DNA of 64,000 bases from the NCBI GenBank assembly GCA_945860165.1, contig CAMAPL010000001.1:186001-250000 (forward strand), in the 5' to 3' direction. This stretch comes from Rhizobium sp. Q54. Lineage in GTDB: Bacteria > Pseudomonadota > Alphaproteobacteria > Micropepsales > Micropepsaceae. Positions 21,059-37,204 of this stretch are shown here, piece by piece. Numbering within the stretch: position 1 is the stretch's first letter; the number at the start of each line of letters is the position of its first letter. A program made the translations under genes and the position numbers. The notes under the pieces were generated by a model, which was not told where the DNA came from, searched no databases, and saw only the letters and a list, made by a program, of their open reading frames with translations.

Positions 21059-22480
21059 TCAGTTTGCGGCGTTAACCGCGGAAGCATTCGCCGGACCCAG
21101 GCGATCCAGATCGAGACCGCGCTGCTTGAGCTGGCTATTGTAGAATTCCCGGATGTTTTCCTGGACGAAATCGGAAGGCGTGCGCCCCCTGTTGTCCTTG
21201 GCATCCAGCTTTGCGCCCTTGTCCGCTAGATACGCGATAACGGCCTCGGCTTTCGGCGACTGCGGATTCGACACCGCCATGTGCATGAGGCCCTTCCCGC
21301 TCTCATCCTTGACCGCGACATCGGGATTAAGCTCCAGCGCGTACTTCACGGCGTCCAGGTTGCCGCCATAGGCCGCGGCCATGGTGAGGTTCATGCCGTC
21401 CTGCGCCCGGATGTCCGGCTTGGCGCCGCCCGTCACAAGCGCCTTCATGACATCGGCCGAACCCGCCTTTGCCGCGAACAGCAAGGGCGGCGTGGGATAC
21501 AGCACAACAGGCGGGGCCTTGATCGCGCCGTCCGCAATCGCAAGGCCCTTGGCCCCGGTACCACCACCGCCGCCACCAGCACCGGCCACCTGGACCGGCG
21601 CAGCCCGGCGCGGCGGGGCCGGCGCGGGCTGGCTCAAAACATTCGCGTCCGCGCCTTTGGAGAGCAGGAAGGTCACAAGCTCCGGGCTGCCACTCGCCGC
21701 AGCGACATGGATCAGTTGCCGTCCCTCACCGTCACGCTGGCTCATATCCGCACCCAGGGTGACGACCCGTTTGGCGAAATCAATGTCATTTTTCAGCACG
21801 GCGGCCTCGGCCACGGTTGTGCCGTCCGGCAGCCTTGCTTTAAAATCAGCGCCCGCATCCAGCAGAGCCACCGGCGCCTTTGGGTCCGTGCTTTTCAGCG
21901 CAAAGAACAGCGGCGTAAAGCCCTTGGCGGCGACCGCGTTCGGGTTGGCGCCATGCTTGACCAGGAAGGTGATGGTGTCCGCATTGCCCTTTGCCGCCGC
22001 CCACATCAGGGGCGTCAGCCCCTGCGTATCGGCCCCATTCACTTTGGCGCCTTTTGCGATCAGCGCGCCGACTGCCGCCGGCCTGGATGTTCCCGCACAC
22101 AGCGCGAGAGCCGAGGTCCCGTCCGGGCGTACCGTCCCGGCATTGGCGCCGGCGTTGATCAGGCTGACGACAATATCGGGATTTCCCAGCTCGCAGGCCA
22201 CGGCCAGAGGCGTGGCGCCTTGAATATCGGCCACATTGGGCTTGGCACCCGCCGCCAGCAGCAGTCGCACCGACTGCGCGTCCTGACGGTCTATGGCCCA
22301 GAGCAAAGGCGTGGATTTGTCCGCCAACGGCGCGTTGGGATTGGCCTTGTTCGCCAGCAGGCTCTTGACGAGCGCATGCTCATTTTCCCGCACCGCCTGC
22401 GCCAGCCGCTCCTCCGGAACACCGGCCGCCGCCGGGGCGGCTCCCAGGACAAGGACAGCAAATCCGAGCGCTTTTTTCAT
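21059..22480 (-). CDS. Exported ankyrin-repeat protein
   Basis: A 473-residue protein with a signal peptide (MKKALGFAVLVLGAAPAAAG) and at least nine ankyrin repeats, for example STPLLWAIDRQDAQSVRLLL, ATPLAVACELGNPDIVVSLI and LTPLMWAAAKGNADTITFLV. A glycine-rich insert (GAGGGGGGTGAKG) splits the repeat array near residue 300. It is the distal gene of a run with the DUF1552 and DUF1592-type genes (12-bp gap), so it probably scaffolds an extracytoplasmic complex with them. That grouping is seen in other genomes from memory; the partner is unproven. Confidence 0.9.
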   Translation of the reverse strand: MKKALGFAVLVLGAAPAAAGVPEERLAQAVRENEHALVKSLLANKANPNAPLADKSTPLLWAIDRQDAQSVRLLLAAGAKPNVADIQGATPLAVACELGNPDIVVSLINAGANAGTVRPDGTSALALCAGTSRPAAVGALIAKGAKVNGADTQGLTPLMWAAAKGNADTITFLVKHGANPNAVAAKGFTPLFFALKSTDPKAPVALLDAGADFKARLPDGTTVAEAAVLKNDIDFAKRVVTLGADMSQRDGEGRQLIHVAAASGSPELVTFLLSKGADANVLSQPAPAPPRRAAPVQVAGAGGGGGGTGAKGLAIADGAIKAPPVVLYPTPPLLFAAKAGSADVMKALVTGGAKPDIRAQDGMNLTMAAAYGGNLDAVKYALELNPDVAVKDESGKGLMHMAVSNPQSPKAEAVIAYLADKGAKLDAKDNRGRTPSDFVQENIREFYNSQLKQRGLDLDRLGPANASAVNAAN

Positions 22481-22492
22481 GTCGGCATCCAA

Positions 22493-23836
22493 CTAAGCGG
22501 TCAGCCCGGCGAGGCGACCGGTGCTGTCGCCGAGCCGGTCCTGTTTCACGCCCAGCGTATCCATCATCGAAAGCATCAGATTGGTCATGGGCGTATCGTC
22601 CGAAACCACCATGTGGCGATTGCCCTTGACCAGTCCGCCCGCGACGATGACCGGCAGATTGGTGTGCTGGTGCGTGTTGGAATCGGCCAGGCTGGCGCCG
22701 GCCAGCAGCAGGGAGTGATCCAGCAGCGTGCCCTCGCCGTCTTTCGTTTCGCTCATCCGCTTCAGATAATAGGCGACCTGCTCCATGTGCAGGACGTTGA
22801 TCTTCGTCAGCTTGGCGATCTTTTCGGGATCATTGCCATGGTGGCTCAACGGATGGTGCGCGTCGGCAACGCCGATTTCCGGATAGCTGCGGCCACTGAC
22901 CTCGCGGCCGACCATGAAGGTTCCGACCCGTGTCATGTCCGCCTGATAGGCCAGGACCTGCAGATCAATCATCATGCGCGCATATTCCTCGAACGAATCC
23001 GGGATGCCGGACGGCCGGGCATAGGCCGGCAGCGCGGCGGCGCTGGGACCGCCCTGTTCCATCTTCTGGATGCGCCGCTCGATATCCCGGATGGACTGCA
23101 TATATTCTTCGATCTTTTTCTTGTCATCAGCGCCCATGGAGCCAGACAGATGCCGCGCATCCTCCGCCACGGAATCCAGAATGCTGGCCTGGCGCCTCAG
23201 CCGCACAAGGCGGGTCTTGGCATCCAGACTGTCGCCGTCGCCGAATATGCGCTCGAAGACTTCGCGCGGATTGATGGTGACAGGCAGCGGAGTGGAGGCA
23301 GTCCGCCAAGACAGGGTGTTCGTGTAGGCGCAGCTGTAGCCGGTGTCGCAGCTTCCCACCAGACTAGGTGGATCAAGGCCCAGCTCCAGTGATGGAATCT
23401 GGGTCTGTTCGCTGAATTGCTGGGCAACGATCTGGTCCAGCGAAGGTCCCGAGGTGATGTCGGCGCCTTCGGTCTTCTTGACATGGACGCCCGTCAGATA
23501 CGAGCCGCAGGAGCGGCCGTGATCGCCGCCGCCGTCTCCCAGTGCCTCAGCCTGCTTGTGCGCAAGCCCGCTGATAACCGTGAATTTTTCCCTGTAAGGC
23601 TCTAGTGGCTTGAGGATCGGGGTCAGCGCGTAGCCATCGCCCTTCTGGGCGGGCGTGAAGTTCGGCATCATCATGCCGTTGGGCATGTAGATGACCTGCA
23701 ACCGCATCCGTGCCTTTGCAGCGGTTTCCGCCGCGCTGGCGCTAGTCATCATGGCTTCCAGCAAAGGGAGCGCCAGCGTGGCGCCCATGCCACGCAATAC
23801 GGTGCGGCGTCCCATGGGTTTGCGTCGAATAATCAT
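22493..23836 (-). CDS. DUF1552 exported protein
   Basis: A 447-residue protein with a Tat-type leader (GRRTVLRGMGATLALPLLEA). DUF1552 landmarks include YMPNGMMMPNF, DHGRSCGSYLTGVH, SLDQIVAQQ, SLELG, HPLSHHGNDP and LAGASLADSNTHQHTNLPV. DUF1552 proteins belong to a sulfatase-like (alkaline-phosphatase-superfamily related) group with no proven activity. The start overlaps the upstream DUF1592-type gene by 4 bp, indicating coupling. Such pairs are known especially in planctomycetes, acidobacteria and some proteobacteria. Confidence 0.9.
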   Translation of the reverse strand: MIIRRKPMGRRTVLRGMGATLALPLLEAMMTSASAAETAAKARMRLQVIYMPNGMMMPNFTPAQKGDGYALTPILKPLEPYREKFTVISGLAHKQAEALGDGGGDHGRSCGSYLTGVHVKKTEGADITSGPSLDQIVAQQFSEQTQIPSLELGLDPPSLVGSCDTGYSCAYTNTLSWRTASTPLPVTINPREVFERIFGDGDSLDAKTRLVRLRRQASILDSVAEDARHLSGSMGADDKKKIEEYMQSIRDIERRIQKMEQGGPSAAALPAYARPSGIPDSFEEYARMMIDLQVLAYQADMTRVGTFMVGREVSGRSYPEIGVADAHHPLSHHGNDPEKIAKLTKINVLHMEQVAYYLKRMSETKDGEGTLLDHSLLLAGASLADSNTHQHTNLPVIVAGGLVKGNRHMVVSDDTPMTNLMLSMMDTLGVKQDRLGDSTGRLAGLTA

Positions 23837-26283
23837 CGTTCCGGGGTCCTTCTCATAGCAAAGGGCACGCTTTGGACAATTTCCATGATGATCGTGTTCA
23901 TCCGGAAATCATCCTTGGCGGCCGCGTATCGTACCTTGCGCACAGCCGGCATGTCATAGGCCTCCAGACCTCTTCCAAGCCCATACGTCATCAGTCGTTC
24001 GGTAAAGGCTTCGACGAACTGATCCTTGCGGGCCAGCAGAATGCCTTGGAGACCCTTGGGGCCCTCGAACTTTGTTCCGTCCGGCAATACCGCCGTGACG
24101 TCCAATTTCTGGCCAGCATAACCGGTCCGCCAGGCACCGACCGCATCGTAATTTTCCAGACTGAAGCCCAGCGGGTCCATTTTGGAGTGGCAGGAGGCAC
24201 AGATCGCATTGCTCCGATGCAAATCCATCTGTTCGCGCACGCTCAGCAGCTTGCCATTCTTGGCTTCGTTCAGGGCGGGAATGTTCGGCGGCGGCGGCGG
24301 CGGCGGCGCGGCGAGCAGATTGTCCAAAATCCACTTGCCACGCAGCACCACAGAAGTGCGATCATTGTAGGAGGTGACAGTCAGGATGGCGCCTTGGCCC
24401 AGCAGTCCGCCGCGATGAAGCAACGGGGCCAGCGTCACCTTGCGGAACGACGTGCCATAGATGCCGGAAATGCCGTAATGCTCGGCCAGGCGCTGGTTCA
24501 CATAGGTGTAATCGGCATCTAAGAAATCTAGCGCACTCCGGTTTCCCCGAACAACGCCTTCGAAAAACATCTGCGTTTCCGTCAGCATCGCTGTGCGCAG
24601 ACGCTCGTCAAAGCCTGGGAAATTCCGCCGGTCCGGCCGCTGATATTCCAGCCGGCGCAGATGCAGCCACTGGCCGGCGAAATTCTGCGTCAGGGCTTTG
24701 GCCCTGGGATCCGCGAGCATGCGCGCGACCTGTTGCTTCAGGACCGCGGGCTTGCCCAGCTGTCCACGGTCCGCAAGCGCGAGTAGCTGGCTGTCGGGAA
24801 TACTGCTCCACAGGAAGAAAGACAATCGGGTCGCAAGCTCGAAATCGCTGATCCGGTGGACGCTGCCCGGCGCGCTTTTCGGCGGAGTGCTTTCACGCAT
24901 GAAGAGGAAGTTCGGCGATACCAGGACTTCTTCCAGCGCCGCCTCGATGCCATGTTCAAACCCGCCGTCCTGGCGGCCGGCATCATAGGTTTTCATCAAC
25001 CGGCCGATGTCCCTCGCCGTCACCGGACGGCGATAAGCGCGGCGGGCCAGCGATGTCAAAATCCTCTCGGCGCAGGCCGCTTCCGTCACTTCCGCGGACG
25101 GGCGGCAGATAAAGATGGTGCGGCGGCTGGCGGTATTGCCGGGGGCCTTCACATTATACGGTCCGGCGACGGAAATCTGCATGATGTCGCGCATGTAGAA
25201 ATCCTGCGCGACATTGGGACCCTGCGCGACCGATGGCACCGTGATCTGCTTCACCAGAGCGCCATCGACCTGCACGTCGAGCGGAAGCTGCAACACCGTT
25301 GCCGATGTGCCGACGCGCGGGCCCTTGGTCGTTCTGGGAATCAGCACCTGATCCAAGGTCAGCTTGCGGGGGAAGGAAGCCCCGATGATGCGCGGGCCGG
25401 CCTTGAGGAAGGTCTTCACCTCATGCCGGTTGTTGGCGTCGATCTCGGACTCAGTTTGCGTACCGGCATTCAGATACAGCTGGATCGTATAAGTAGCGTC
25501 ATACGGCGCGTAGAACTTGAACGATCCGCCGCCGCGTGAATCCACCGGAAGGTCGTCGCTGGCGCGCTCGTTATAGGCCGCAATACCGAAGGCATTCTCG
25601 AACAGGTCCTTGGTGACTTTATAATCCGTGGTGACCGGCGTGCGCGACGCCAGACCGGTGGCAAGGCGGCTGACCTTGCCGGCGACATTGATGTAGCGGT
25701 CCATCAACGTCGGCGAGACGGTCAGGACGTCAGCGATGTTGTCGAAACCATAGCCCATGTCATCGACCGGCAAATCCTTGCTCAGATCGATATCCAGCCC
25801 CAGAAGATCGCGCACCGCATTGCCGTATTCTGTGCGGTTCAGGCGTCGCAAGGTAGCGCGGCCCGGGTTGGGGGCGGCAGAAGACATGCCGTCCATCGAG
25901 GTCGCCAGCCAATGCGTGAAATCAGCGATCTCTTCTTTGGAGGGGCGCTTCATGCCCCGGGGCGGCATCTCGCCTAGGCTGACGCGGCGCAGGATTTTTT
26001 CCCATACGTCGTTGTGCGCGCCCAGACGGTCGGCATCCAACGGCAGCACCGACATGCCCGCGGTCTTCGCCTTGTCATTGTGACAACCCGAGCAATATTG
26101 CACGAGCATGGCTTTGCGGGCGGCCGTCGGGGTGGCCGACAAAGGCTGCGGCGCGGCTTGGGCGACCCGGGTCGCGGGCGGCAGGGTATCGGCGGTGGCG
26201 TTTCCTAACAGCGCAATGCCGGCAAGGCCCGCACAGGCAACAATGCCCATGGCAAATCCGCCGCGCTTTATCATCGGTGACAT
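23833..26283 (-). CDS. DUF1587/1592/1588/1585 family c-type cytochrome-like protein
   Basis: An 816-residue exported protein. A leader (MGIVACAGLAGIALLGNATA) precedes an N-terminal CSGCH haem motif (about 69-73). Then follow RATLRRLNRTEYGNAVRDLLG (DUF1587), a beta-rich carbohydrate-binding-like region around 250-390, ELATRLSFFLWSSIPD (DUF1592), LLGQGAILTVTSYNDRTSVVLRGKWIL (DUF1588) and a second haem motif CASCH with KMDPLGFSLENYD (DUF1585). It appears to be a periplasmic di-haem oxidoreductase of unknown substrate. It heads the operon with the DUF1552 and ankyrin genes. A PPPPPPP run precedes the DUF1588 end. Confidence 0.9.
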   Translation of the reverse strand: MSPMIKRGGFAMGIVACAGLAGIALLGNATADTLPPATRVAQAAPQPLSATPTAARKAMLVQYCSGCHNDKAKTAGMSVLPLDADRLGAHNDVWEKILRRVSLGEMPPRGMKRPSKEEIADFTHWLATSMDGMSSAAPNPGRATLRRLNRTEYGNAVRDLLGLDIDLSKDLPVDDMGYGFDNIADVLTVSPTLMDRYINVAGKVSRLATGLASRTPVTTDYKVTKDLFENAFGIAAYNERASDDLPVDSRGGGSFKFYAPYDATYTIQLYLNAGTQTESEIDANNRHEVKTFLKAGPRIIGASFPRKLTLDQVLIPRTTKGPRVGTSATVLQLPLDVQVDGALVKQITVPSVAQGPNVAQDFYMRDIMQISVAGPYNVKAPGNTASRRTIFICRPSAEVTEAACAERILTSLARRAYRRPVTARDIGRLMKTYDAGRQDGGFEHGIEAALEEVLVSPNFLFMRESTPPKSAPGSVHRISDFELATRLSFFLWSSIPDSQLLALADRGQLGKPAVLKQQVARMLADPRAKALTQNFAGQWLHLRRLEYQRPDRRNFPGFDERLRTAMLTETQMFFEGVVRGNRSALDFLDADYTYVNQRLAEHYGISGIYGTSFRKVTLAPLLHRGGLLGQGAILTVTSYNDRTSVVLRGKWILDNLLAAPPPPPPPNIPALNEAKNGKLLSVREQMDLHRSNAICASCHSKMDPLGFSLENYDAVGAWRTGYAGQKLDVTAVLPDGTKFEGPKGLQGILLARKDQFVEAFTERLMTYGLGRGLEAYDMPAVRKVRYAAAKDDFRMNTIIMEIVQSVPFAMRRTPER

Positions 26284-26622: not shown

Positions 26623-28356
26623 CTACTGCGCAGCAGCGTCTGAGCCGCCAAACCTGCTCTTCCATTCCGCAATCTGCTCGTCAGTGATCTTGGCGATCAG
26701 GATTTCGGGCGCTTTGATCGGCTGTCCGTGCGTCAGGTCGTCCAGCAAGGTCGCCATCCCTTCCGACGGAAAGGGAATAATGCCACCACGATAGCCCACC
26801 GGCTGGATGCATTCATGGATGGTTTTGGCGAAGGACGGCATGATCGGCCATAGCAGATGGGCGAACTGGTGGATCAGGTTCAGGCCCACCCGCACCCCCA
26901 CCGCCGCCCTAGCGCGGTCGGTCTTGATATGGGTCCAGGGCGCGGCCTTGGTCATGTATTCGTTGCCCGCCACCCAGATGGCCCGCATTTCGCCCATCGC
27001 CTTGCGGAATTCCGCATTCTCCATGTAGTTGGCATACTGCGCGATGCGCTTGTCGAGTTCGGCGATCAGCGCCTTTTCCTCGTCGCCATATTCGCCCTCG
27101 CCCGGCACCTGGCCATCGAAGCGCGCAACGCAGAACTTGGTCACCCGGTTGACGAAGTTGCCCAGCACGTCGGCCAGGTCCTTGTTGATGATGCCGGCGA
27201 ACTGTTCCCAGGTGAAATTGCTGTCCGAGCCTTCGGGTGCATTGGCGATTAGGTAATAGCGCCAGTAATCGGCGGGCGCGACCTCCAGCGCTGCGTCCAT
27301 GAAGATGCCGCGCTTGCCCGAGCTGGAGAATTTTCCGCCGTCATAGTTGAGCCAGTTGAAGCCCTTCAGCCGGTCGACCAGCTTCCAGGGTTCGCCCGAG
27401 GCCATGATGGAGACGGGGAAGCCCACCGTGTGGAAAGGCACATTGTCCTTGCCCATGAATTCCCAATAGGTGACGTCATTGGCCGCCTCGCCGTACCACC
27501 AGTCTTTCCAGGCATCGCCCTTATTGTTCTTGTCGGCCCATTCCTTGGTGGCCGCGATGTACTCGATGGGCGCGTCGAACCAGACGTAGAAGACTTTTCC
27601 CTTCAACTGGCCGTCGGCGATATCGTCCGGCACCGGGATGCCCCATTCCAGGTCGCGGGTAATGCCGCGATCCTGCAAGCCTTCGTCGAGCCACTTGTAG
27701 GCGATGGAGGTTACCAGCGAGGGCCAGTCATTCTTGTGGCTGTCGATCCAACTGCGCAGCCGGTCAGAGAATTGCGACTGTTTCAGGAACAGATGGGTGG
27801 AATCGCGGATCTCGATATCGGCGGCGCCCGACACCGCCGAGCGCGGATTGATCAGGTCGATGGGATCTAGCACGCGGGTGCAATTCTCGCACTGGTCGCC
27901 GCGCGCCCGATCATAGCCGCAATGTGGACAGGTGCCGATGACATAACGGTCGGGCAGGAAGCGTTTGTCGGTGGGCGAATAGGCCTGCTTGGTGACGCGG
28001 ATTTCCAGGAAACCGTTCTTCCAGAGCTGGCGAGCGAAATGCAGGGTCAGTTCATGGTTCTGCGGCGATGACGAACGCCCGAAATTGTCCCAGTCCAGCG
28101 CGAAGCGGTCGCCCAGATCCTTCTGCACCCCATGCCACTTGGCGGCATACTCAGCGACCGGCGTGCCCTCTTCCAGCGCCGCCAGTTCCACCGGTGCGCC
28201 ATGCTCGTCCGTCGCGCAGATCGCCAGCGTGTCGTAGCCGCGGCTGCGGCAATAGCGGGCGAAAATGTCGGCCGGGAGCATGGAGCCCACCAGGTTTCCC
28301 AGGTGCTTGACCCCGGCGACATAGGGGATGGCGGACGTGATGAGGATGCGTTTCAT
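26623..28356 (-). CDS. metG: Methionyl-tRNA synthetase
   Basis: A 577-residue class I aminoacyl-tRNA synthetase. The HIGH-equivalent is within PYVAGVKHLGNLVGSMLPAD, the zinc knuckle is CPHCGYDRARGDQCENC (about 141-157), and the KMSKS loop appears as GGKFSSSGKRGIF (about 340-352). The KFS-type loop is a known variant of one MetG clade rather than a defect. A C-terminal anticodon-binding helical domain is present; no tRNA-binding EMAPII-like extension follows. It is divergent from the four-paralogue cluster. Confidence 0.94.
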   Translation of the reverse strand: MKRILITSAIPYVAGVKHLGNLVGSMLPADIFARYCRSRGYDTLAICATDEHGAPVELAALEEGTPVAEYAAKWHGVQKDLGDRFALDWDNFGRSSSPQNHELTLHFARQLWKNGFLEIRVTKQAYSPTDKRFLPDRYVIGTCPHCGYDRARGDQCENCTRVLDPIDLINPRSAVSGAADIEIRDSTHLFLKQSQFSDRLRSWIDSHKNDWPSLVTSIAYKWLDEGLQDRGITRDLEWGIPVPDDIADGQLKGKVFYVWFDAPIEYIAATKEWADKNNKGDAWKDWWYGEAANDVTYWEFMGKDNVPFHTVGFPVSIMASGEPWKLVDRLKGFNWLNYDGGKFSSSGKRGIFMDAALEVAPADYWRYYLIANAPEGSDSNFTWEQFAGIINKDLADVLGNFVNRVTKFCVARFDGQVPGEGEYGDEEKALIAELDKRIAQYANYMENAEFRKAMGEMRAIWVAGNEYMTKAAPWTHIKTDRARAAVGVRVGLNLIHQFAHLLWPIMPSFAKTIHECIQPVGYRGGIIPFPSEGMATLLDDLTHGQPIKAPEILIAKITDEQIAEWKSRFGGSDAAAQ

Positions 28357-28438: not shown

Positions 28439-29509
28439 ATGGGTAAAATTCGGAATTTCACCATGGCGGCAATGGGATCGGCGGCCATTCTCACAGGTGT
28501 TGCCATGGCCCAGAACCGTGCCGCCCCGCCGCCCGCCGCCAGCGTCATTCCCGCCAGCGCGCTGGACAACCTGCCCCACCGGGACATCTCCAACGGTATC
28601 ATCTCGGCCAAGGCGTATATCCCTGGTCCCGGCGGTCTTTATCGCGGCACCCGCTTCGACCGCGCCGGCGTTATCGCCCAAACCACCTACAAGGGCACCA
28701 ATTTCGGCCAGTACTGGTTCTCCAGCTATTCGCCGCATGTGCGCGACTTCATCTGGCAGGATGGCCAGGTGACGGTGCATCCCGCCAGCGGTGCGCCGGG
28801 TCCGGTGGAAGAATTCGCCGCCGTCGGATTCGACGAAGCGGGGATGGAGGGGCGCTTTCTCAAGATCGGCACCGGCATCCTGAAGCGCGATACCGCCACT
28901 TACGACTATGTCCATAACTATCCGGTGCTGAACGAAGGTAAGCGCGGCTTCAGCGCGACCAAGTCCAGCGCCCGCTACACCCAGAATGTCAGCGGCGATG
29001 CGTCGGGCTACGGCTATTCCTATGTGAAGACGGTGCGGTTGCCGGCCGGCAAACCGCAAATGCTGATCGAGCATGTGCTGACCAACACCGGCAAGAAGGA
29101 CATCGTCACCAGGGTATATTGCCACAACTTCCTGACCCTGGGCACCGGTAACGAAAATGTCACCATCACCGCCCCCTTCGACATCAAGGCGGAGCGGCCC
29201 TTCGCGGCCGGCGCCGCCGCGGTGGATGGCAAGACCTTCCGTTACCTGCGCGCGGTCCAGGAAAACGAAAGCGTTACCTCGCCCATCACTGGCTTTGGTG
29301 ATTCCGTCAGCGATTACGACTTCAAGATCGTCAACACCCAGACCGGCTTTGGCCAACGCATCCGCGCCGACCAGCCCCTGGCGCAGATCAACTTCTGGTC
29401 CATCCGGACCAATGTGAGCTGGGAGCCATACATCGCCATCTCGCTCAAGCCCGGCCAAACCAAGCGATGGACCTACACCTACGACTATTTCGGCCCGGGT
29501 GAAGGCTGA
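28439..29509 (+). CDS. Paralogue 1 of 4: exported galactose-mutarotase-like protein
   Basis: A 356-residue protein with signal peptide (MAAMGSAAILTGVAMA-Q). Conserved blocks shared by all four tandem genes: ISNGIISAKAYIPG, YRGTRFDRAGVI, GPVEEFAAVGFDEAGM, FLKIGTGIL, DASGYGYSYVKTV, YCHNFLTLG, TGFGQRIRAD and WEPYIAISLKPGQTKRWTYT. The layout of a central His (HNF) and a late Glu in EPYI-x-I-x-L-x-PG recalls GalM-type sugar mutarotases, and similar proteins are annotated as hypothetical in acidobacteria. No biochemical role is known to me. GAGGGG precedes the ATG. It is first in the four-gene unit, with 1 bp between it and the next gene. Confidence 0.85.
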   Translation: MGKIRNFTMAAMGSAAILTGVAMAQNRAAPPPAASVIPASALDNLPHRDISNGIISAKAYIPGPGGLYRGTRFDRAGVIAQTTYKGTNFGQYWFSSYSPHVRDFIWQDGQVTVHPASGAPGPVEEFAAVGFDEAGMEGRFLKIGTGILKRDTATYDYVHNYPVLNEGKRGFSATKSSARYTQNVSGDASGYGYSYVKTVRLPAGKPQMLIEHVLTNTGKKDIVTRVYCHNFLTLGTGNENVTITAPFDIKAERPFAAGAAAVDGKTFRYLRAVQENESVTSPITGFGDSVSDYDFKIVNTQTGFGQRIRADQPLAQINFWSIRTNVSWEPYIAISLKPGQTKRWTYTYDYFGPGEG

Positions 29510-29510
29510 G

Positions 29511-30542
29511 ATGCGGCGCATCCTTCTCGCGCTTCTGGCAGGCACGGCGCTGACTGCGCCAGCGTCCGCCCAGCCGGGAACGCAGCCCACCAGCGTTCTG
29601 GATCAGTCGCCGCATGTGGTGATCTCCAACGGGCTGGTGTCCGCCCATGTTTTCCCGCCGGGCGAGAATTCGCTCTACAAGGGCACGCGCTTTGACCATG
29701 CCGGCGTGATGTTGCACGTCACTTATAAGGGCCAGGATTACAGCGATTACTGGTTCGACCGCTTCGTGGTCGATCCGCGCGACACCAGTCGCCATGCCAG
29801 CGGTACGCAAACCGCCTGCTGCGCCGTCAGCGGCCCGGTGGAAGAATTCGGTGTTGTCGGATTTGAAGAAGCCGGCATGGGCGGGCGCTTTCTTAAGCCC
29901 GGCGTCGGCATCTTCAAGCGCGACGGTGATAATCCAACCCAGCATCCTACCTTGCCCCTGCTGAATGCCGGGGCGCGCAGCTTCAAATCCAGCGAGACCG
30001 GCGCGCAATTCGTCCATGACCTTAAAGATACGGCCAGCGGCTATGGCTATCACTATGCGAAAAACGTGGAGCTGGTGGAGGGCAAGCCACAAATGACCAT
30101 GTCCCACGAGCTGAAAAACATCGGCAGCAAGCCCATCGTCACCACGGTCTACAATCATAACTTCCTGACCCTTAGCCCCGGCAGCGAACATCTGACCATT
30201 ACTGCGCCCTTCAACTGGTCCGCGGCAGTGCCGCTGCAACCCGAGCTAGTGAAGCTGGACGGCAAAACCATCCGCTACATCGCCCCAATTCCAACAGGCG
30301 TGACCACCCAGAGCGTGATGACCGGCTTCGGGACGCGCGCGTCCGATTATGATTTCCGCGTCACCAACACCAAGACCGGTTTCGGACAGCGCATCCGCGG
30401 CGACCTGCCGATCGCGAAGATCAACATGTGGTCTATCGTCACCAACTATAGCCTGGAACCCTATATCGCCATTTCCCTCAAGCCCGGCGAGACCAAACGC
30501 TGGACTTACACCTATGATTTTTATGGACCTGGAGAAAAATGA
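29511..30542 (+). CDS. Paralogue 2 of 4: exported galactose-mutarotase-like protein
   Basis: A 343-residue protein with signal peptide (MRRILLALLAGTALTAPASA-Q). The same blocks are present: ISNGLVSAHVFPPGE, YKGTRFDHAGVML, GPVEEFGVVGFEEAGMGG, DTASGYGYHYAKNVE, YNHNFLTLSPG, MTGFGTRASDYDF, TGFGQRIRGDLPIAKINMWS and LEPYIAISLKPGETKRWT. It differs in FLKPGVGIF, where the others have KIG, and in a TQTACCAVSGPVEEF insertion carrying a Cys pair. A GAAGG Shine-Dalgarno lies inside the end of gene 1. Its stop shares a base with the gene 3 start region. Confidence 0.85.
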   Translation: MRRILLALLAGTALTAPASAQPGTQPTSVLDQSPHVVISNGLVSAHVFPPGENSLYKGTRFDHAGVMLHVTYKGQDYSDYWFDRFVVDPRDTSRHASGTQTACCAVSGPVEEFGVVGFEEAGMGGRFLKPGVGIFKRDGDNPTQHPTLPLLNAGARSFKSSETGAQFVHDLKDTASGYGYHYAKNVELVEGKPQMTMSHELKNIGSKPIVTTVYNHNFLTLSPGSEHLTITAPFNWSAAVPLQPELVKLDGKTIRYIAPIPTGVTTQSVMTGFGTRASDYDFRVTNTKTGFGQRIRGDLPIAKINMWSIVTNYSLEPYIAISLKPGETKRWTYTYDFYGPGEK

Positions 30543-31618
30543 TGCGTAAAAAAATCATCACGGCTGGTCTTATCCTGGGGTGCACAGGCGCGGCCATCGG
30601 CACCGTCTATGCCCAGGGCAACGCGCCCTTCGTGCCGCCGCCCGCCAACAGCACCAGTCCGGCCAGCCTGCTGGACGACATGCCGTCCAAAACCATTTCC
30701 AACGGCATTATCAGCGCCAAGGTCTATGTCCCGAACAAGTTCGGTTTTTACCGCGCCACCCGCTTTGACCATGCCGGCATGATCACCCACCTGACCTACA
30801 AGGGGCATGACTATGGCCGCTACTGGTTCGTCAAGACCTCGCCCAATGTGCGCAACTTCACCTATGACCAGGACGGGCTGGTGGCGCATAGCAACAATAT
30901 CGCAGCGGGCCCGGTGGAAGAGTTCGGCGAGAACGGCTTTGAAGGGGCCAGCCGCGGCGGGCGCTTCCTGAAGATCGGCGTCGGCATACTGGAGCGCGAC
31001 AACGATATCTATGACCGCTTCCACACCTATCCCATCCTGAATGAAGGCAGGCGCACCACCCGCGCCACCGCGAACAGCATCCGCTTCACCCAGGATGTTT
31101 CCGGAGATCTGTCGGGTTACGGCTATAGCCACACCAAGACGGTGACCATGGTGCCAGGAAAATCCCAGATGACTATCGTAGTCCGACTGAAAAACACCGG
31201 CAGCAAACCGATTGATACAACTGTCTACAACCATCATTTCACCACCCTCAGTCCCGGCAATGAAGCCATCGAACTGACTGCGCCGTTCAAGCTGACCAAT
31301 GTGCGCCCCATGCCCTCGGACGTGATAAAGTTTGAAGGTCCGCGCATGACCTACTTGCGCGCCATCACCGGGCAGGAACAGGTTGCCAGCGATCTGACGG
31401 GTTTCGGCGCTAGCGCCAGCGACAATGATTTCCGCATCACCAACACCAAGACCGGTTTCGGCGTGCGCCTGCGCGCCGACTTGCCGGTCGCGCGACTGCT
31501 GTGGTGGTCGGTGCCCAGCACATTGAGCCTGGAGCCCTATATGGAGATCAAACTGCAGCCGGGCGAGGAAAAGCGCTGGACCCACACGCTGGACTATTAC
31601 GGTCCCGGAGATAATTGA
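30542..31618 (+). CDS. Paralogue 3 of 4: exported galactose-mutarotase-like protein
   Basis: A 358-residue protein with signal peptide (IITAGLILGCTGAAIGTVYA-Q). Shared blocks: ISNGIISAKVYVPNKFG, YRATRFDHAGMI, GPVEEFGENGFEGASRGG, FLKIGVGILERD, DLSGYGYSHTKTV, YNHHFTTLSPGNEAIELTAP, TGFGASASDNDFRI, TGFGVRLRADLP and LEPYMEIKLQPGEEKRW. The ATG at 30542 overlaps the preceding stop (TGATG) and has GGAG 7 nt upstream; an ATG at 30539 is an alternative. The final residues YYGPGDN encode the ribosome-binding site of gene 4. Confidence 0.85.
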   Translation: MRKKIITAGLILGCTGAAIGTVYAQGNAPFVPPPANSTSPASLLDDMPSKTISNGIISAKVYVPNKFGFYRATRFDHAGMITHLTYKGHDYGRYWFVKTSPNVRNFTYDQDGLVAHSNNIAAGPVEEFGENGFEGASRGGRFLKIGVGILERDNDIYDRFHTYPILNEGRRTTRATANSIRFTQDVSGDLSGYGYSHTKTVTMVPGKSQMTIVVRLKNTGSKPIDTTVYNHHFTTLSPGNEAIELTAPFKLTNVRPMPSDVIKFEGPRMTYLRAITGQEQVASDLTGFGASASDNDFRITNTKTGFGVRLRADLPVARLLWWSVPSTLSLEPYMEIKLQPGEEKRWTHTLDYYGPGDN

Positions 31619-32676
31619 TGAAACGGGCTATCATCGCCATCGCCACACTGATGGCAAGCGCGGCGATGGCCCAGCCTGTCCAGCCGCCGCCCCCGCGCAG
31701 CTATCCGGTGGAGCGCGCGCTGGCCGCCGCGCCCTTCATTACGTTGCGCAACGAGCGCATCACCATGACGGTGACGCCGCCCGATCTTAAGCGCGGTTTC
31801 TTTCGCGGTACCCGCTTTGACCAGGCCGGGGTCGTCACCAGCCTGAAGTTGAATGGCAAAGAGTTCTACGGGCCCTGGTTCAGCCGCACCGCGCCCGAAG
31901 TGCTGGATTACACCTATACCGAGGACGGTCTGGTGGCCGGCCCAGACAGCGCCGCCACCGGGCCGGTGGAAGAATTCGCAGCTATCGGTTTCGACGACGC
32001 CAAGCCGGGCGGCACATTCCACAAGATAGGCGTTGGCGTGCTGCGGCGGCCCGACGACAAGGCTTACGACAAATACTGGCATTACGAGATCGCGGACTGG
32101 GGCAAGCGCACGACGCGCCATACCCGCAGCAGCATCACTTTCACCCAGCGCATCGCCGACCCTGCGTCAGGCTATGGCTATGGCTATGGCTATGACTATG
32201 AGAAGACGTTGCGGCTGGTGCCCGGCACCACCCAGCTGGTAATCGAGCATGTGCTGAAGAATACCGGCACTCGGCCGATCAGCTCCAATGTCTATGACCA
32301 CAACTTCCTGCGCCTGACACCGGGCAATGACGGTATCAAGGTGACGTTCCCCTTCCAGCTGGCTGCCGCAACGCCGCCTGCCGCCGACATGATCCGCATC
32401 GAGGGCAACACGATGACCTACCTGCGGCCGATGGCTTACAAGGAGCGCATTTCCTTTATTGTAACAGGATTCGGCGCGAGCGCTTTGGATTACGACATCT
32501 CCATCTCTGACAGAATCGGCGCCGGGGTGCGTATGGTGGGCGATCAGCCCATGACCCGGATCAACATTTTCTCCATCGACACGACTCAGTCGGTCGAGCC
32601 CTACATCGCCATCGAACTGGCGCCGGGGGCGGAAAAACGCTGGACTTACACCTACACATTTACAGCGCCTCAATAG
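31618..32676 (+). CDS. Paralogue 4 of 4: exported galactose-mutarotase-like protein
   Basis: A 352-residue protein and the most divergent member, with signal peptide (AIIAIATLMASAAMA-Q). Shared blocks are weaker at the start (ITLRNERITMTVTPPDLKRG) but clear after: FRGTRFDQAGVV, GPVEEFAAIGFDDAKPGG, HKIGVGVL, YDHNFLRLTPGNDGIKV, TGFGASALDYDI, GAGVRMVGDQP and VEPYIAIELAPGAEKRWTYT. A GGCTAT hexamer expansion lengthens the SGYGY block. Its start overlaps the gene 3 stop (TGATG) with GGAG 7 nt upstream. It is followed 41 bp later by tRNA-Thr. Confidence 0.85.
   Translation: MKRAIIAIATLMASAAMAQPVQPPPPRSYPVERALAAAPFITLRNERITMTVTPPDLKRGFFRGTRFDQAGVVTSLKLNGKEFYGPWFSRTAPEVLDYTYTEDGLVAGPDSAATGPVEEFAAIGFDDAKPGGTFHKIGVGVLRRPDDKAYDKYWHYEIADWGKRTTRHTRSSITFTQRIADPASGYGYGYGYDYEKTLRLVPGTTQLVIEHVLKNTGTRPISSNVYDHNFLRLTPGNDGIKVTFPFQLAAATPPAADMIRIEGNTMTYLRPMAYKERISFIVTGFGASALDYDISISDRIGAGVRMVGDQPMTRINIFSIDTTQSVEPYIAIELAPGAEKRWTYTYTFTAPQ
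32170..32193 (+). repeat. GGCTAT x4 microsatellite inside paralogue 4
   Basis: Four perfect GGCTAT units, followed by a degenerate GACTAT, encode GYGYGYGYDY. The equivalent position in the other three paralogues reads only SGYGY plus two residues, so paralogue 4 carries about 12 extra in-frame bases. Confidence 0.9.
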
Positions 32677-32717: not shown

Positions 32718-32793
<76 letters not shown>

Positions 32794-32994: not shown

Positions 32995-35919
32995 CTATGC
33001 CAAATGCGCCGCCAGCAGGCTGGCGACATGGACCGCCTTACGGTTCGCGCCGCTTTCGATCTGGTGGCGGCAGGAGGTCCCGTCCGCCACCAGCACGGTA
33101 TCAGCACTTGCCGCCCGCGCCGCCGGCAGCAGCGACAGTTCGCCCATCGCCAATGAAACATCGGCAGTTTCGGCCTGATAGCCGAAGGCGCCCGCCATGC
33201 CGCAGCAGCTGGACTCGATGTTTTCCAGCTTAAGGTCAGGGATCAGGCGCAACGCTTCTTCCACCGCACCCATGGCGCCGAAAGCCTTCTGGTGACAATG
33301 GCCGTGCAACAGGGCCGTGGCCGCAGCGGGCTTGAGATCGGGCTTAAAGCGGCCCGCCTTGGCCTCGCGGGCAATAAACTCCTCGAACAGCAGCGCATGG
33401 GCGGCGGCGCGCTTGCTTTGCGCCCCCGGAAGCATCGCCAGCGCCTCGTCGCGAAAGGAGAAAAGGCAGCTCGGCTCCAGCCCCACCAGCGGCACGCCGC
33501 GCGCGAAAAAAGGGTCCAGCGCCTGAAGGGTGCGGGTCATTTCCGCCCTGGCGGCGTCAACATTGCCGACTGCCAGATGGGTGCGGCCGCAACAGAGCGG
33601 GCGTGTTCCGCCGTCGGCCGGCGCGGCGACATGGACACGATAACCGGAGGACGTGAGAACCTTCAGCGCATCATGCAGAATTTCCGGCTCAAAAGCGGCG
33701 TTGAAACTGTCGGCCCACAGAACGACTTCGTGACCACCCTCCGGTCCCATGCTTGTGCCCGGCATGGCGAAACGGTCGGAACGCCACACCGGCAAGTCGC
33801 GCCTGGCGCTGAAACCGGCGATCTTCTCGGACAGCCAGCGCAGCAGACCAATGCGATTGCGCAAGTTCAAAAGCGGCGCGAACTTCGCCGCCAGTGGGGC
33901 ATAGTGCGGCAGGTTGGCCACCAGCTGGTCGCGCAGGCTGTAGCCGCGATCCTTCGCCCGCGCCGATAACACTTCGATCTTCATCCGCGCCATGTCCACG
34001 CCGGTGGGGCATTCGCGCTTGCACGCCTTGCAGGAGACACAGAGCTTCATCGTCTCCATCATCTCGTCAGAGGTAAATGCATCGGCCCCCAACTGTCCTG
34101 ACAGCGCTAGTCGCAGCGAATTGGCGCGGCCGCGCGTGACGTGTTCTTCGTCGCGAGTGACGCGATAGGAGGGGCACATCGCCCCGCCTTCGGCTTTGCG
34201 GCAGGCGCCGTTGTTGTTGCACTGCTCGGCGGCGCCCTGGAAGCCACCGACGGCACCGGGATATTCCGACCAGTCTAGCGCGGGCGCGAAATCGCGCACC
34301 TTATAGTCCGGCGCATAGCGGAACAGGTTGCGGCTATCGAACTTTGGGCTACGCACGATCTTGCCCGGGTTCATCATGCCGACGGGATCGAACGTGTCCT
34401 TGACCTCTTCGAAAGCCGAGACCAGGCGCGGCCCGAACATCTCTTCATGGAATTCGCTGCGCACCAGCCCGTCGCCATGCTCGCCGGAATGCGAGCCTTT
34501 ATACTGGCGCACAAGCTCGAAGGCCTCTTCGGCGATGGCGCGCATCGCCTTGACGTCTTTTTCTAGCCGCAGGTTCAGAACGGGCCTCACATGCAGGCAG
34601 CCTTCGCTGGCATGGGCATACCAGGTGCCGCGCGTGCCATTGCGCTCGAAACATTCGGTCAGCTTGGCGGTGTATTCCGCCAGATGCGGCAGCGGCACGG
34701 CGCAATCTTCCACGAAGGAGATCGGTTTGGCCTGCTCCTTCATAGACATCATGATGTTGAGGCCGGACTTGCGCAGTTCGGTGATTGCGTTCTGCAAGGC
34801 GGGATCATAGACCTCGACCACCCCGCCCCACTTGGCGCCGCTGTGCGAGAAATCCACGCCCAGATCGCCCATCATCTGCGACAGCGCGGCCATGCGGCGG
34901 CGATTCTCCTCCTCGCCGGAATCGAATTCCACCAGCAGGATAGCTTGGGGCGAACCCTTCAGCATGGCGGCCAGGGTGGAATGGAACATGGGTATTTCCG
35001 CCGCCAGCACCAGCATGGTGTCGTCCACCAGCTCCACCGCGATGGGTTTGAGAGTCACCAGATGCTGGGCCGCATCCATCGCCGTATGGAACGATCCGAA
35101 ATGGCAGACGCCCAGCGCCCGCTTGCCCAGAACCGGCGACAATTGCAGTTTGATGGCGGTGGAATAAGCCAGCGTGCCTTCCGATCCCACCAGCAGATGC
35201 GCCAGGTTGATGCGGTTGTTGCGCGGGTTCAGGGCGTCGATGTTGTAGCCGCCGACCCGCCGGTGCACCTTGGGAAAACGCGCCTCCACTTCGCCGGCTT
35301 CCCGCGCCCCGATCGCCAGCAGCTTTTCCGCCAGCGGACGCTGGGCGGCACTGACATCGGACATGTCGGGTGACACTTGGCCGAAATGCATTACCGTACC
35401 GTCGGCCAGCACCGCGTCAATCGCCAGCACATTGGCGCGCATGGTGCCGTAACGGATCGAACGGCCGCCGCAACTGTTGTTCGCGGTCATGCCGCCGATG
35501 GTGGCGCGCGAGGCGGTCGAAACGTCCACCGGAAACCACAAACCATGCGGCTTCAGTTGCCGGTTGAGATCGTCCAGAACAATGCCGGGCTCCACCGTGA
35601 CGGTGCGCCCCTCCACATCCAGCGACAGGATGCGGTTTAGATACTTGGAACCGTCGATGATGAGGCCCGAATTGACAGTTTGTCCGCACTGGCTGGTGCC
35701 GCCGCCCCGCGCCGTGACCGGCAAACCCTCTTCGCGCGCCAGCGCCAGCGCCGTCACCGCGCCATCCATGTTGCGGGGAACAACCACGCCCGCCGGGATC
35801 ATCTGGTAATGGGACGCGTCGGTGGCATAGCGCCCGCGCGAAAAGCTGTCGAAGAGCACGTCGCCCTGGAGATGGGCCTTGAGCCGCCTTTCCAGGCCAG
35901 GATGCGCGGCAAATGCCAT
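32995..35919 (-). CDS. FAD-linked oxidase with C-terminal Fe-S/CCG domains (D-2-hydroxyacid dehydrogenase type)
   Basis: A 974-residue fusion. The N-terminal half is a PCMH-type FAD domain (VVPRNMDGAVTALALAREEG, then GGGTSQCGQ and TIGGMTANNSCGGRSIRYGT) plus a GlcD-like cap with HSGEHGDGLVRSEF. The C-terminal half has ferredoxin-like cysteines (CNNNGACRKAEGGAMCPSY and CVSCKACKRECPTG) and CCG redox motifs (LCCGRTHLAVG and ESSCCGMAGAFG). This YdiJ-like architecture oxidises D-2-hydroxyglutarate or D-lactate-type acids and passes electrons through Fe-S centres. I chose ATG 35919 because the homologous start is MAFAAHPGLERRLK. It is divergent from the aminotransferase operon. Confidence 0.93.
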   Translation of the reverse strand: MAFAAHPGLERRLKAHLQGDVLFDSFSRGRYATDASHYQMIPAGVVVPRNMDGAVTALALAREEGLPVTARGGGTSQCGQTVNSGLIIDGSKYLNRILSLDVEGRTVTVEPGIVLDDLNRQLKPHGLWFPVDVSTASRATIGGMTANNSCGGRSIRYGTMRANVLAIDAVLADGTVMHFGQVSPDMSDVSAAQRPLAEKLLAIGAREAGEVEARFPKVHRRVGGYNIDALNPRNNRINLAHLLVGSEGTLAYSTAIKLQLSPVLGKRALGVCHFGSFHTAMDAAQHLVTLKPIAVELVDDTMLVLAAEIPMFHSTLAAMLKGSPQAILLVEFDSGEEENRRRMAALSQMMGDLGVDFSHSGAKWGGVVEVYDPALQNAITELRKSGLNIMMSMKEQAKPISFVEDCAVPLPHLAEYTAKLTECFERNGTRGTWYAHASEGCLHVRPVLNLRLEKDVKAMRAIAEEAFELVRQYKGSHSGEHGDGLVRSEFHEEMFGPRLVSAFEEVKDTFDPVGMMNPGKIVRSPKFDSRNLFRYAPDYKVRDFAPALDWSEYPGAVGGFQGAAEQCNNNGACRKAEGGAMCPSYRVTRDEEHVTRGRANSLRLALSGQLGADAFTSDEMMETMKLCVSCKACKRECPTGVDMARMKIEVLSARAKDRGYSLRDQLVANLPHYAPLAAKFAPLLNLRNRIGLLRWLSEKIAGFSARRDLPVWRSDRFAMPGTSMGPEGGHEVVLWADSFNAAFEPEILHDALKVLTSSGYRVHVAAPADGGTRPLCCGRTHLAVGNVDAARAEMTRTLQALDPFFARGVPLVGLEPSCLFSFRDEALAMLPGAQSKRAAAHALLFEEFIAREAKAGRFKPDLKPAAATALLHGHCHQKAFGAMGAVEEALRLIPDLKLENIESSCCGMAGAFGYQAETADVSLAMGELSLLPAARAASADTVLVADGTSCRHQIESGANRKAVHVASLLAAHLA

Positions 35920-36019
35920 GTGAAGCGTTCGTCCTTCGCTGATTTTGTTCGGACTTTTTGCCGGTTCCGGGCTAAAAGCAATGCAAATATAAAGCGCCCG
36001 GTGGGGCCCGAGGAATGAC

Positions 36020-37204
36020 ATGACCCAAGGACCGCATTTTCTGCAAATTCCCGGACCCAGCCCGGTGCCGGAGCGCATCCAGCGCGCTATCGACCGCCAG
36101 GTAATCGACCATCGCGGACCGGATTTCCAGAAACTGGGTCACGAGGCGCTGGAAGGCATCAAGCCGATCTTCGGCACCACCCAGCCGGTCATCATCTATC
36201 CTGCCTCAGGCACCGGGGCGTGGGAGGCGGCCATCGTCAACACCCTGTCGGCCGGCGACCGCGTGCTGATGGCCGAAACCGGCCAGTTCGCCACTTTGTG
36301 GCAGAATCTGGCGGCACGCTGGGGCGTCACTGTCGATTTCCTGCCCGGCGACTGGCGGCATGGCGTCGATGCCGCCGCTATCGAGGCCAGGCTGGCGGAC
36401 GACAAGTCGCACACCATCAAGGCGGTTATGGTGGTGCACAACGAGACCTCCACCGGTTGCCTTTCCGACATCGCCGCAGTGCGCAAGGCGATGAATGCCG
36501 TCAAGCATCCAGCACTGCTGATGGTCGATACCATCTCCTCGCTGGGCTCCGCGCCCGTCAAGCATGACGGCTGGGGCGCCGACGTCACCGTGTCGGGCTC
36601 GCAAAAGGGCCTGATGCTGCCGCCAGGCCTGAGTTTCACCGCCGTCTCGCCAAAAGCGCTGGCGGCGTCCAAGACCAACACGCTGCCGCGCGCCTATTGG
36701 GACTGGCAGGAAATGATCGCCTTCAACGCCAAGGGCTTCTTTCCCTACACGCCCGCCAGCACGCTGCTCTATGGCTTGCGCGAAGCCCTGATAATGCTGA
36801 ACGAGGAAGGGCTGGAGAATGTTTTCGCCCGCCACCAGCACCTGGCCGCCGCCTGCCGCGCCGCGGTTCGCGGCTGGGGCTTGGACGTCCTGTGCGCCGA
36901 TCCCAAAGTCACCTCGCCCATCCTGACCGGCATCCTGATGCCGGCCGGGCATGACGCTGACAATTTCCGCAAAGTCGCGCTGGAGAATTTCAACATTTCC
37001 TATGGCGCCGGTCTGGGCAAGGTCGCCGGCAAGGTGTTCCGCATCGGCCATCTGGGCGACTGCAACGAGTTGACCTTGATGGCGGCGCTATGCGCCACCG
37101 AAATGTCGCTGACCCTGGCGGGCGTGCCGCACAAGGCCGGCGGCGTGGCCGCCGCCATGGCCAGCTTTACCGAAGATAACAAGAAGCTGCGCCTGTCGGC
37201 GTAG
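36020..37204 (+). CDS. Class V aminotransferase (serine/alanine--glyoxylate type)
   Basis: A 394-residue PLP enzyme of the alanine/serine-glyoxylate aminotransferase family. Visible: the N-terminus HFLQIPGPSPVPERI, the turn YPASGTGAWEAA, VHNETSTGCLSDI, the PLP-contacting Asp in MVDTISSLGSAP and the PLP-lysine in VSGSQKGLMLPPGLSF, and the C-terminal RIGHLGDCNELTLMAAL. It probably transfers amino groups to glyoxylate or a related 2-oxoacid. It begins 100 bp from the divergent 2-hydroxyacid dehydrogenase, and is followed 25 bp later by an MFS transporter, suggesting a shared substrate pathway. Confidence 0.92.
   Translation: MTQGPHFLQIPGPSPVPERIQRAIDRQVIDHRGPDFQKLGHEALEGIKPIFGTTQPVIIYPASGTGAWEAAIVNTLSAGDRVLMAETGQFATLWQNLAARWGVTVDFLPGDWRHGVDAAAIEARLADDKSHTIKAVMVVHNETSTGCLSDIAAVRKAMNAVKHPALLMVDTISSLGSAPVKHDGWGADVTVSGSQKGLMLPPGLSFTAVSPKALAASKTNTLPRAYWDWQEMIAFNAKGFFPYTPASTLLYGLREALIMLNEEGLENVFARHQHLAAACRAAVRGWGLDVLCADPKVTSPILTGILMPAGHDADNFRKVALENFNISYGAGLGKVAGKVFRIGHLGDCNELTLMAALCATEMSLTLAGVPHKAGGVAAAMASFTEDNKKLRLSA

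Follow-up and report, generated by a model that had tools for sequence, protein, structure and literature searches.

Four tandem genes for predicted exported proteins of an uncurated galactose-mutarotase-fold family form a conserved array in one alphaproteobacterial lineage

Mutarotases are usually seen as single housekeeping accelerators. Among the closest described counterparts of the locus reported here is GalM, the aldose 1-epimerase (PF01263), represented by the proteins of L. lactis (1l7k) and E. coli (b2544, 3nre). The active site of L. lactis GalM comprises Arg71, His96, His170, Asp243 and Glu304 (PMC5622589). Sulfoquinovose mutarotase (HsSQM, YihR), a one-sugar specialist acting within a pathway and encoded by one gene of a sulfoglycolytic operon, keeps His92, His162 and Glu254 (PMC5902678). 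The galactose-mutarotase-like superfold is also adopted by a non-enzyme, the periplasmic domain of the membrane insertase YidC. The four array proteins described here are predicted to have the fold in common with GalM, and they appear to resemble it in placing a His within an NH.(Y/F)F-type strand and a Glu within an LEP-type strand, and in a C-terminal L.PG(E/Q) strand. In contrast to GalM, they show sequence similarity to it only below detection, lack a recognisable counterpart of His96, carry invariant motifs of their own (TRFD.AG, GPVEEF, FLK.G.G and YxYxK) and are encoded in a tandem array. A conserved Glu and one His are common to the family and HsSQM, but the array has no sulfoglycolytic operon partners. 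With the YidC domain the array proteins would share the superfold and an extracytoplasmic place, whereas an insertase domain is absent from them.

The array lies in a 64,000-nucleotide stretch of contig CAMAPL010000001.1, hereafter the window, to which all coordinates refer unless stated otherwise. Its four genes are on the + strand. Gene 1 (P1, 28439..29509) starts with ATG at 28439 and encodes 356 aa, predicted as an exported galactose-mutarotase-fold protein; the products of the other three are predicted to be exported paralogues of it. Gene 2 (P2, 29511..30542; 343 aa) starts with ATG at 29511, a GTG at 29499 being a possible in-frame upstream alternative. Gene 3 (P3, 30539..31618) encodes 359 aa, or 358 aa from an alternative ATG at 30542, and gene 4 (P4, 31618..32676; 352 aa) starts with ATG at 31618. 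The first-pass annotation had described four consecutive paralogous genes, each with a signal peptide, with junctions that overlap or lie 1 bp apart and Shine-Dalgarno sequences inside the previous gene, and each of these features was recovered, in ORFs of 343-359 aa. The start of gene 2 lies 1 bp past the stop of gene 1, genes 2 and 3 are joined by an ATGA overlap and genes 3 and 4 by a TGATG overlap. Purine-rich Shine-Dalgarno-like stretches are found within the preceding gene ahead of genes 2 (GGTGAAGG), 3 (GGAG) and 4 (GGAG). The four genes probably constitute one operon and would be co-transcribed; promoter and terminator scans remained at chance level. The locus is bordered on the left by divergent metG, encoding methionyl-tRNA synthetase (26623..28356, - strand), and on the right by tRNA-Thr (TGT) (32718..32793, + strand). 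Whether or not a relative has the array, metG marks this left border; it is a boundary marker with no part in array function. The tRNA gene likewise adjoins metG in single-gene and empty-site relatives.

Inspection by eye and hydropathy analysis of the four N-termini revealed a positive n-region followed by a hydrophobic core (mean KD 1.7-2.3) and sites of the A-x-A↓Q type (AMA↓Q, ASA↓Q, VYA↓Q and AMA↓Q for genes 1-4), suggesting a periplasmic or extracellular location of the proteins. At the protein level, identity to gene 1 is 51% for genes 2 and 3 and 43% for gene 4, and the genome contains exactly these four members of the family. The ordered motifs previously listed as common to the four proteins are all present with slight variation (RFD.AG, GPVEEF, SGYGY, H(N/H)F, TGFG, EPY..I.L.PG and KRWT.T).

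None of the four proteins matches a Pfam or NCBIfam model above threshold, and profiles built from the four or from 66 family members retrieved nothing usable among PDB sequences; the family is thus uncurated. All four fall below the curated cut-off of PF01263, for which the best of the 66 members reaches E 0.016, and below that of DUF4432 (PF14486), to which 4 of the 66 members show weak similarity (best E 0.032). Aldose_epim and DUF4432 are both among the sub-threshold Pfam matches of single members. Two further matches were dismissed as chance: one of gene 3 to TmpA in NCBIfam, whose 14 bits (E 0.014) fall far below the cut-off of 400, and one to ribosomal protein L43 among PDB sequences (E 0.71). 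A DUF4432 protein of the same genome contains an LLYHTNF strand similar to that of the array family, but the profile comparison is not significant (probability 0.9%, E 0.062). This protein (locus L054, 1402-2628 of that locus, - strand) has a signal-peptide-like start and adjoins an ORF that by eye resembles a TonB receptor.

The AlphaFold2 models of genes 1 and 4 are almost entirely beta, with pLDDT values of 91.2 and 92.9 and pTM values of 0.87 and 0.90, respectively. In Foldseek comparisons of both models with the PDB, galactose mutarotases and their structural-genomics relatives rank first (3dcd, 3k25, 3nre, 1l7k, 3q1n and 4bze), with E-values of about 1e-8 to 5e-10 (best 5.5e-9 for gene 1 and 4.8e-10 for gene 4) at a probability of 1.00; the TM-scores, at about 0.5, are moderate and the rmsd is large. 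The YidC periplasmic domain is also among the matches. The models thus support the galactose-mutarotase-like fold (beta-supersandwich) that had earlier been proposed for these proteins.

Comparing the family profile with three canonical GalM-type proteins encoded by the array genome placed VYcHNF on NHAYFN and SxEPY on cLEP, so that H229 (gene 1 numbering) would correspond to GalM His170 and E329 to Glu304. The E-value of this alignment is 0.0077 but its probability is low, and it therefore counts as supportive only. Of the 66 members, 65 have H229, and E329 occurs in every member having that column, which is missing from one truncated row; both candidates are kept in all four paralogues. R72, conserved in 65 of 66, may correspond to GalM Arg71, and R72, H229 and E329 are accordingly listed as the candidate active-site residues of gene 1. 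D292/D294 (50-51 of 66 members) is a weak candidate for Asp243. For His96 no conserved His was found in the 66-member alignment, where only columns 229 and 212 hold His in more than 60% of the family, and the His at 212 has been lost in the P3 group. Invariant residues of the family are F73, D74, G77, G121, K142, G144, G146, Y193, K197 and F231, with E124 nearly so. Among these, the polar set D74, E124, K142, Y193 and K197 has no obvious GalM counterpart. Judged from these residues, epimerase activity is likely; the reaction may be plain mutarotation or, given the missing His96 counterpart and the invariant residues peculiar to the family, a different one.

In the phylogeny, each array position forms its own orthologue group across genomes with strong support. 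P4 branches off first, then P3, and P1 and P2 are sisters, the pattern expected of serial tandem duplication. The search of other genomes for the same array, which the first-pass annotation had proposed, found the order 1-2-3-4 in six further loci of relatives. Two loci (L013 and L018) hold two-gene arrays of P1 and P4, and one (L007) a three-gene array P1-P2-P3 that is bounded by tRNA-Thr, so that P4 is absent there. On contigs of sufficient length, divergent metG and tRNA-Thr(TGT) usually flank the locus. In six relatives this site is empty, with 108-303 bp from metG to the tRNA gene. A single family gene occupies it in another (G445), directly adjoins metG in a further genome (G006), and is found alone at locus L019. 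All 13 sampled genomes with at least two copies fall into one clade of the metG tree (100/98); an empty-site genome paired with a single-gene genome is sister to this clade. Most simply read, the amplification took place once, in place between metG and tRNA-Thr(TGT), and was then retained, with some later losses.

The four groups are under purifying selection, with dN/dS values against orthologues of 0.09-0.25; together with the order kept in relatives, this argues that the array is not a chance pattern. Sixty-three positions are fixed within all four groups, and 21 of them differ between groups. P3 and P4 are the most distinctive, with nine private states each. In the P3 group His212 is replaced by Asp or Val, HHF mostly stands where the others have HNF, and Leu replaces Tyr at 348; P4, the most divergent paralogue, has Phe instead of Trp at 320. 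An old expansion with lasting divergence of the copies is supported.

Scanning genome contigs located 35 family loci. Within the genus, the family was found in 19 of 69 genomes, and in a class-wide sample of 385 alphaproteobacterial genomes from 276 genera no other genus had it; the array carriers are alphaproteobacteria from freshwater and soil. Members beyond close relatives occur in Planctomycetota (Gemmataceae, Isosphaera), Bacteroidales, Acidobacteriia, Opitutales and a Roseobacter MAG. Elsewhere the family is almost exclusively single-gene: outside the genus there is one copy per genome searched, except in the Roseobacter MAG, which has a second, weaker match, and the two matches in one Bacteroidales MAG are two pieces of one ORF. 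Signal-peptide-like starts are also seen in the Planctomycetota, Opitutales, Acidobacteria and Roseobacter MAG members, and most gut Bacteroidales members seem to be devoid of them.

No sugar-catabolism partner consistently accompanies the array across the genus. An FAD-linked oxidase, a class V aminotransferase, an MFS transporter, a cupin and an SGL protein were considered as operon partners and rejected because they lie beyond the tRNA gene and are not constant in relatives. The oxidase is fused to a 4Fe-4S domain (1027 aa; window 32995-36078, - strand), and homologues of it occur near the array at three other loci (L006, L007 and L015). On the far side of metG, window 21059-26283 (- strand) encodes a DUF1552 (HXXSHH) protein adjoining an 816-aa planctomycete-type cytochrome c protein (DUF1587/1592/1595/1588/1585), followed by an ankyrin-repeat protein. 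This module is best known from Planctomycetes and is present here in an alphaproteobacterium.

Outside the genus, sugar-related neighbours point to carbohydrate: GH127, GH3, GH20 and MFS proteins in Bacteroidales, an enolase-superfamily enzyme and MFS in Opitutales, and an FGGY kinase in the Roseobacter MAG. Seven Bacteroidales loci (L025, L028 and L035-L039) mostly encode proteins lacking a signal peptide; the annotated neighbours at two of them (L025 and L039) also include DUF4855 and a phosphodiester glycosidase, and these neighbourhoods may offer a route to the substrate of the whole family. The three canonical GalM-type aldose 1-epimerases of the array genome (L050, L051 and L052) are full-length and have signal-peptide-like starts, so mutarotase export seems general in this organism. 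One of them (L050) adjoins a putative alpha-L-arabinofuranosidase.

Our preferred reading, to which we assign a probability of roughly 0.55, is that the four genes encode exported mutarotase-like enzymes of an uncurated family that have become specialised, with different sugars as their probable substrates. Each protein would act outside the cytoplasm, interconverting the anomers of a free aldose or sugar derivative through His229 and Glu329 as a putative acid/base pair like His170 and Glu304 of GalM. Anomers would thereby be equilibrated before uptake or oxidation, and anomer-specific uptake or oxidation would no longer be held back by the slow pace of spontaneous mutarotation. Serial tandem duplication in one lineage would have produced the four copies before they specialised. 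Against this proposal stand the TM-scores and the YidC match, the lack of a His96 counterpart, the polar set foreign to GalM, the absence of a syntenic sugar-catabolism partner across the genus and the presence in this organism of three canonical GalM-type proteins and a DUF4432 protein besides the array.

Some of these points would fit a different carbohydrate reaction on the mutarotase fold, for example epimerisation or a lyase-like reaction on an oligosaccharide or uronide, with catalysis through D74, E124, K142, Y193 and K197 together with H229 and E329. The distinct polar set, the missing His96 position, similarity to canonical mutarotases below all thresholds, and the glycoside hydrolases and sugar-acid-type enzyme among neighbours outside the genus make this possible, if doubtful. 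However, the His/Glu pair is kept in a mutarotase-typical context, and the array proteins are single-domain, whereas lyases and hydrolases of this fold have a second domain. The YidC match could also indicate exported sugar-binding or chaperone-like proteins devoid of catalysis, which appears quite improbable given that charged and aromatic residues, His and Glu included, are invariant across phyla and that gene contexts in other taxa involve carbohydrate. Conserved gene order, overlapping starts and stops and the loss of His212 in the P3 group could be explained by an obligate hetero-oligomer of the four, translationally coupled in fixed order. Single genes (L019, G006) argue against it, the natural two- and three-gene arrays disfavour an obligate four-part complex, and with H229 and E329 kept in all four groups, none of these looks like a dead structural subunit; we regard such a complex as very improbable. 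A broader proposal seems unlikely, in which exported mutarotase-fold enzymes with a non-canonical active site, expanded within one genus into a co-translated set of four, act together through a chemistry unprecedented among mutarotases, whether on four different sugars freed at the cell surface or assembled into one hetero-oligomer.

The locus had been put forward as an undescribed system. This stands insofar as no curated model covers the family and the array is apparently unreported: no description of such an array was found in the literature searched, whose coverage was incomplete. It does not stand insofar as a family otherwise encoded by single genes, with members also in Planctomycetes, Bacteroidales, Acidobacteria and Opitutales, has here been duplicated in one lineage. 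The array is real, conserved and unannotated. It is best described as the expansion, in a single lineage, of an uncurated family that belongs to a known fold; it makes a good target for enzymology but does not constitute a new type of system. Although the family has members in at least five phyla, none of them is recognised by a Pfam or NCBIfam model and no related solved structure is detectable by sequence, so that one structure and one assay would make it possible to annotate many proteins. For the organism, four diverged exported paralogues in conserved tandem suggest that extracytoplasmic anomer conversion may be worth duplicating and specialising.
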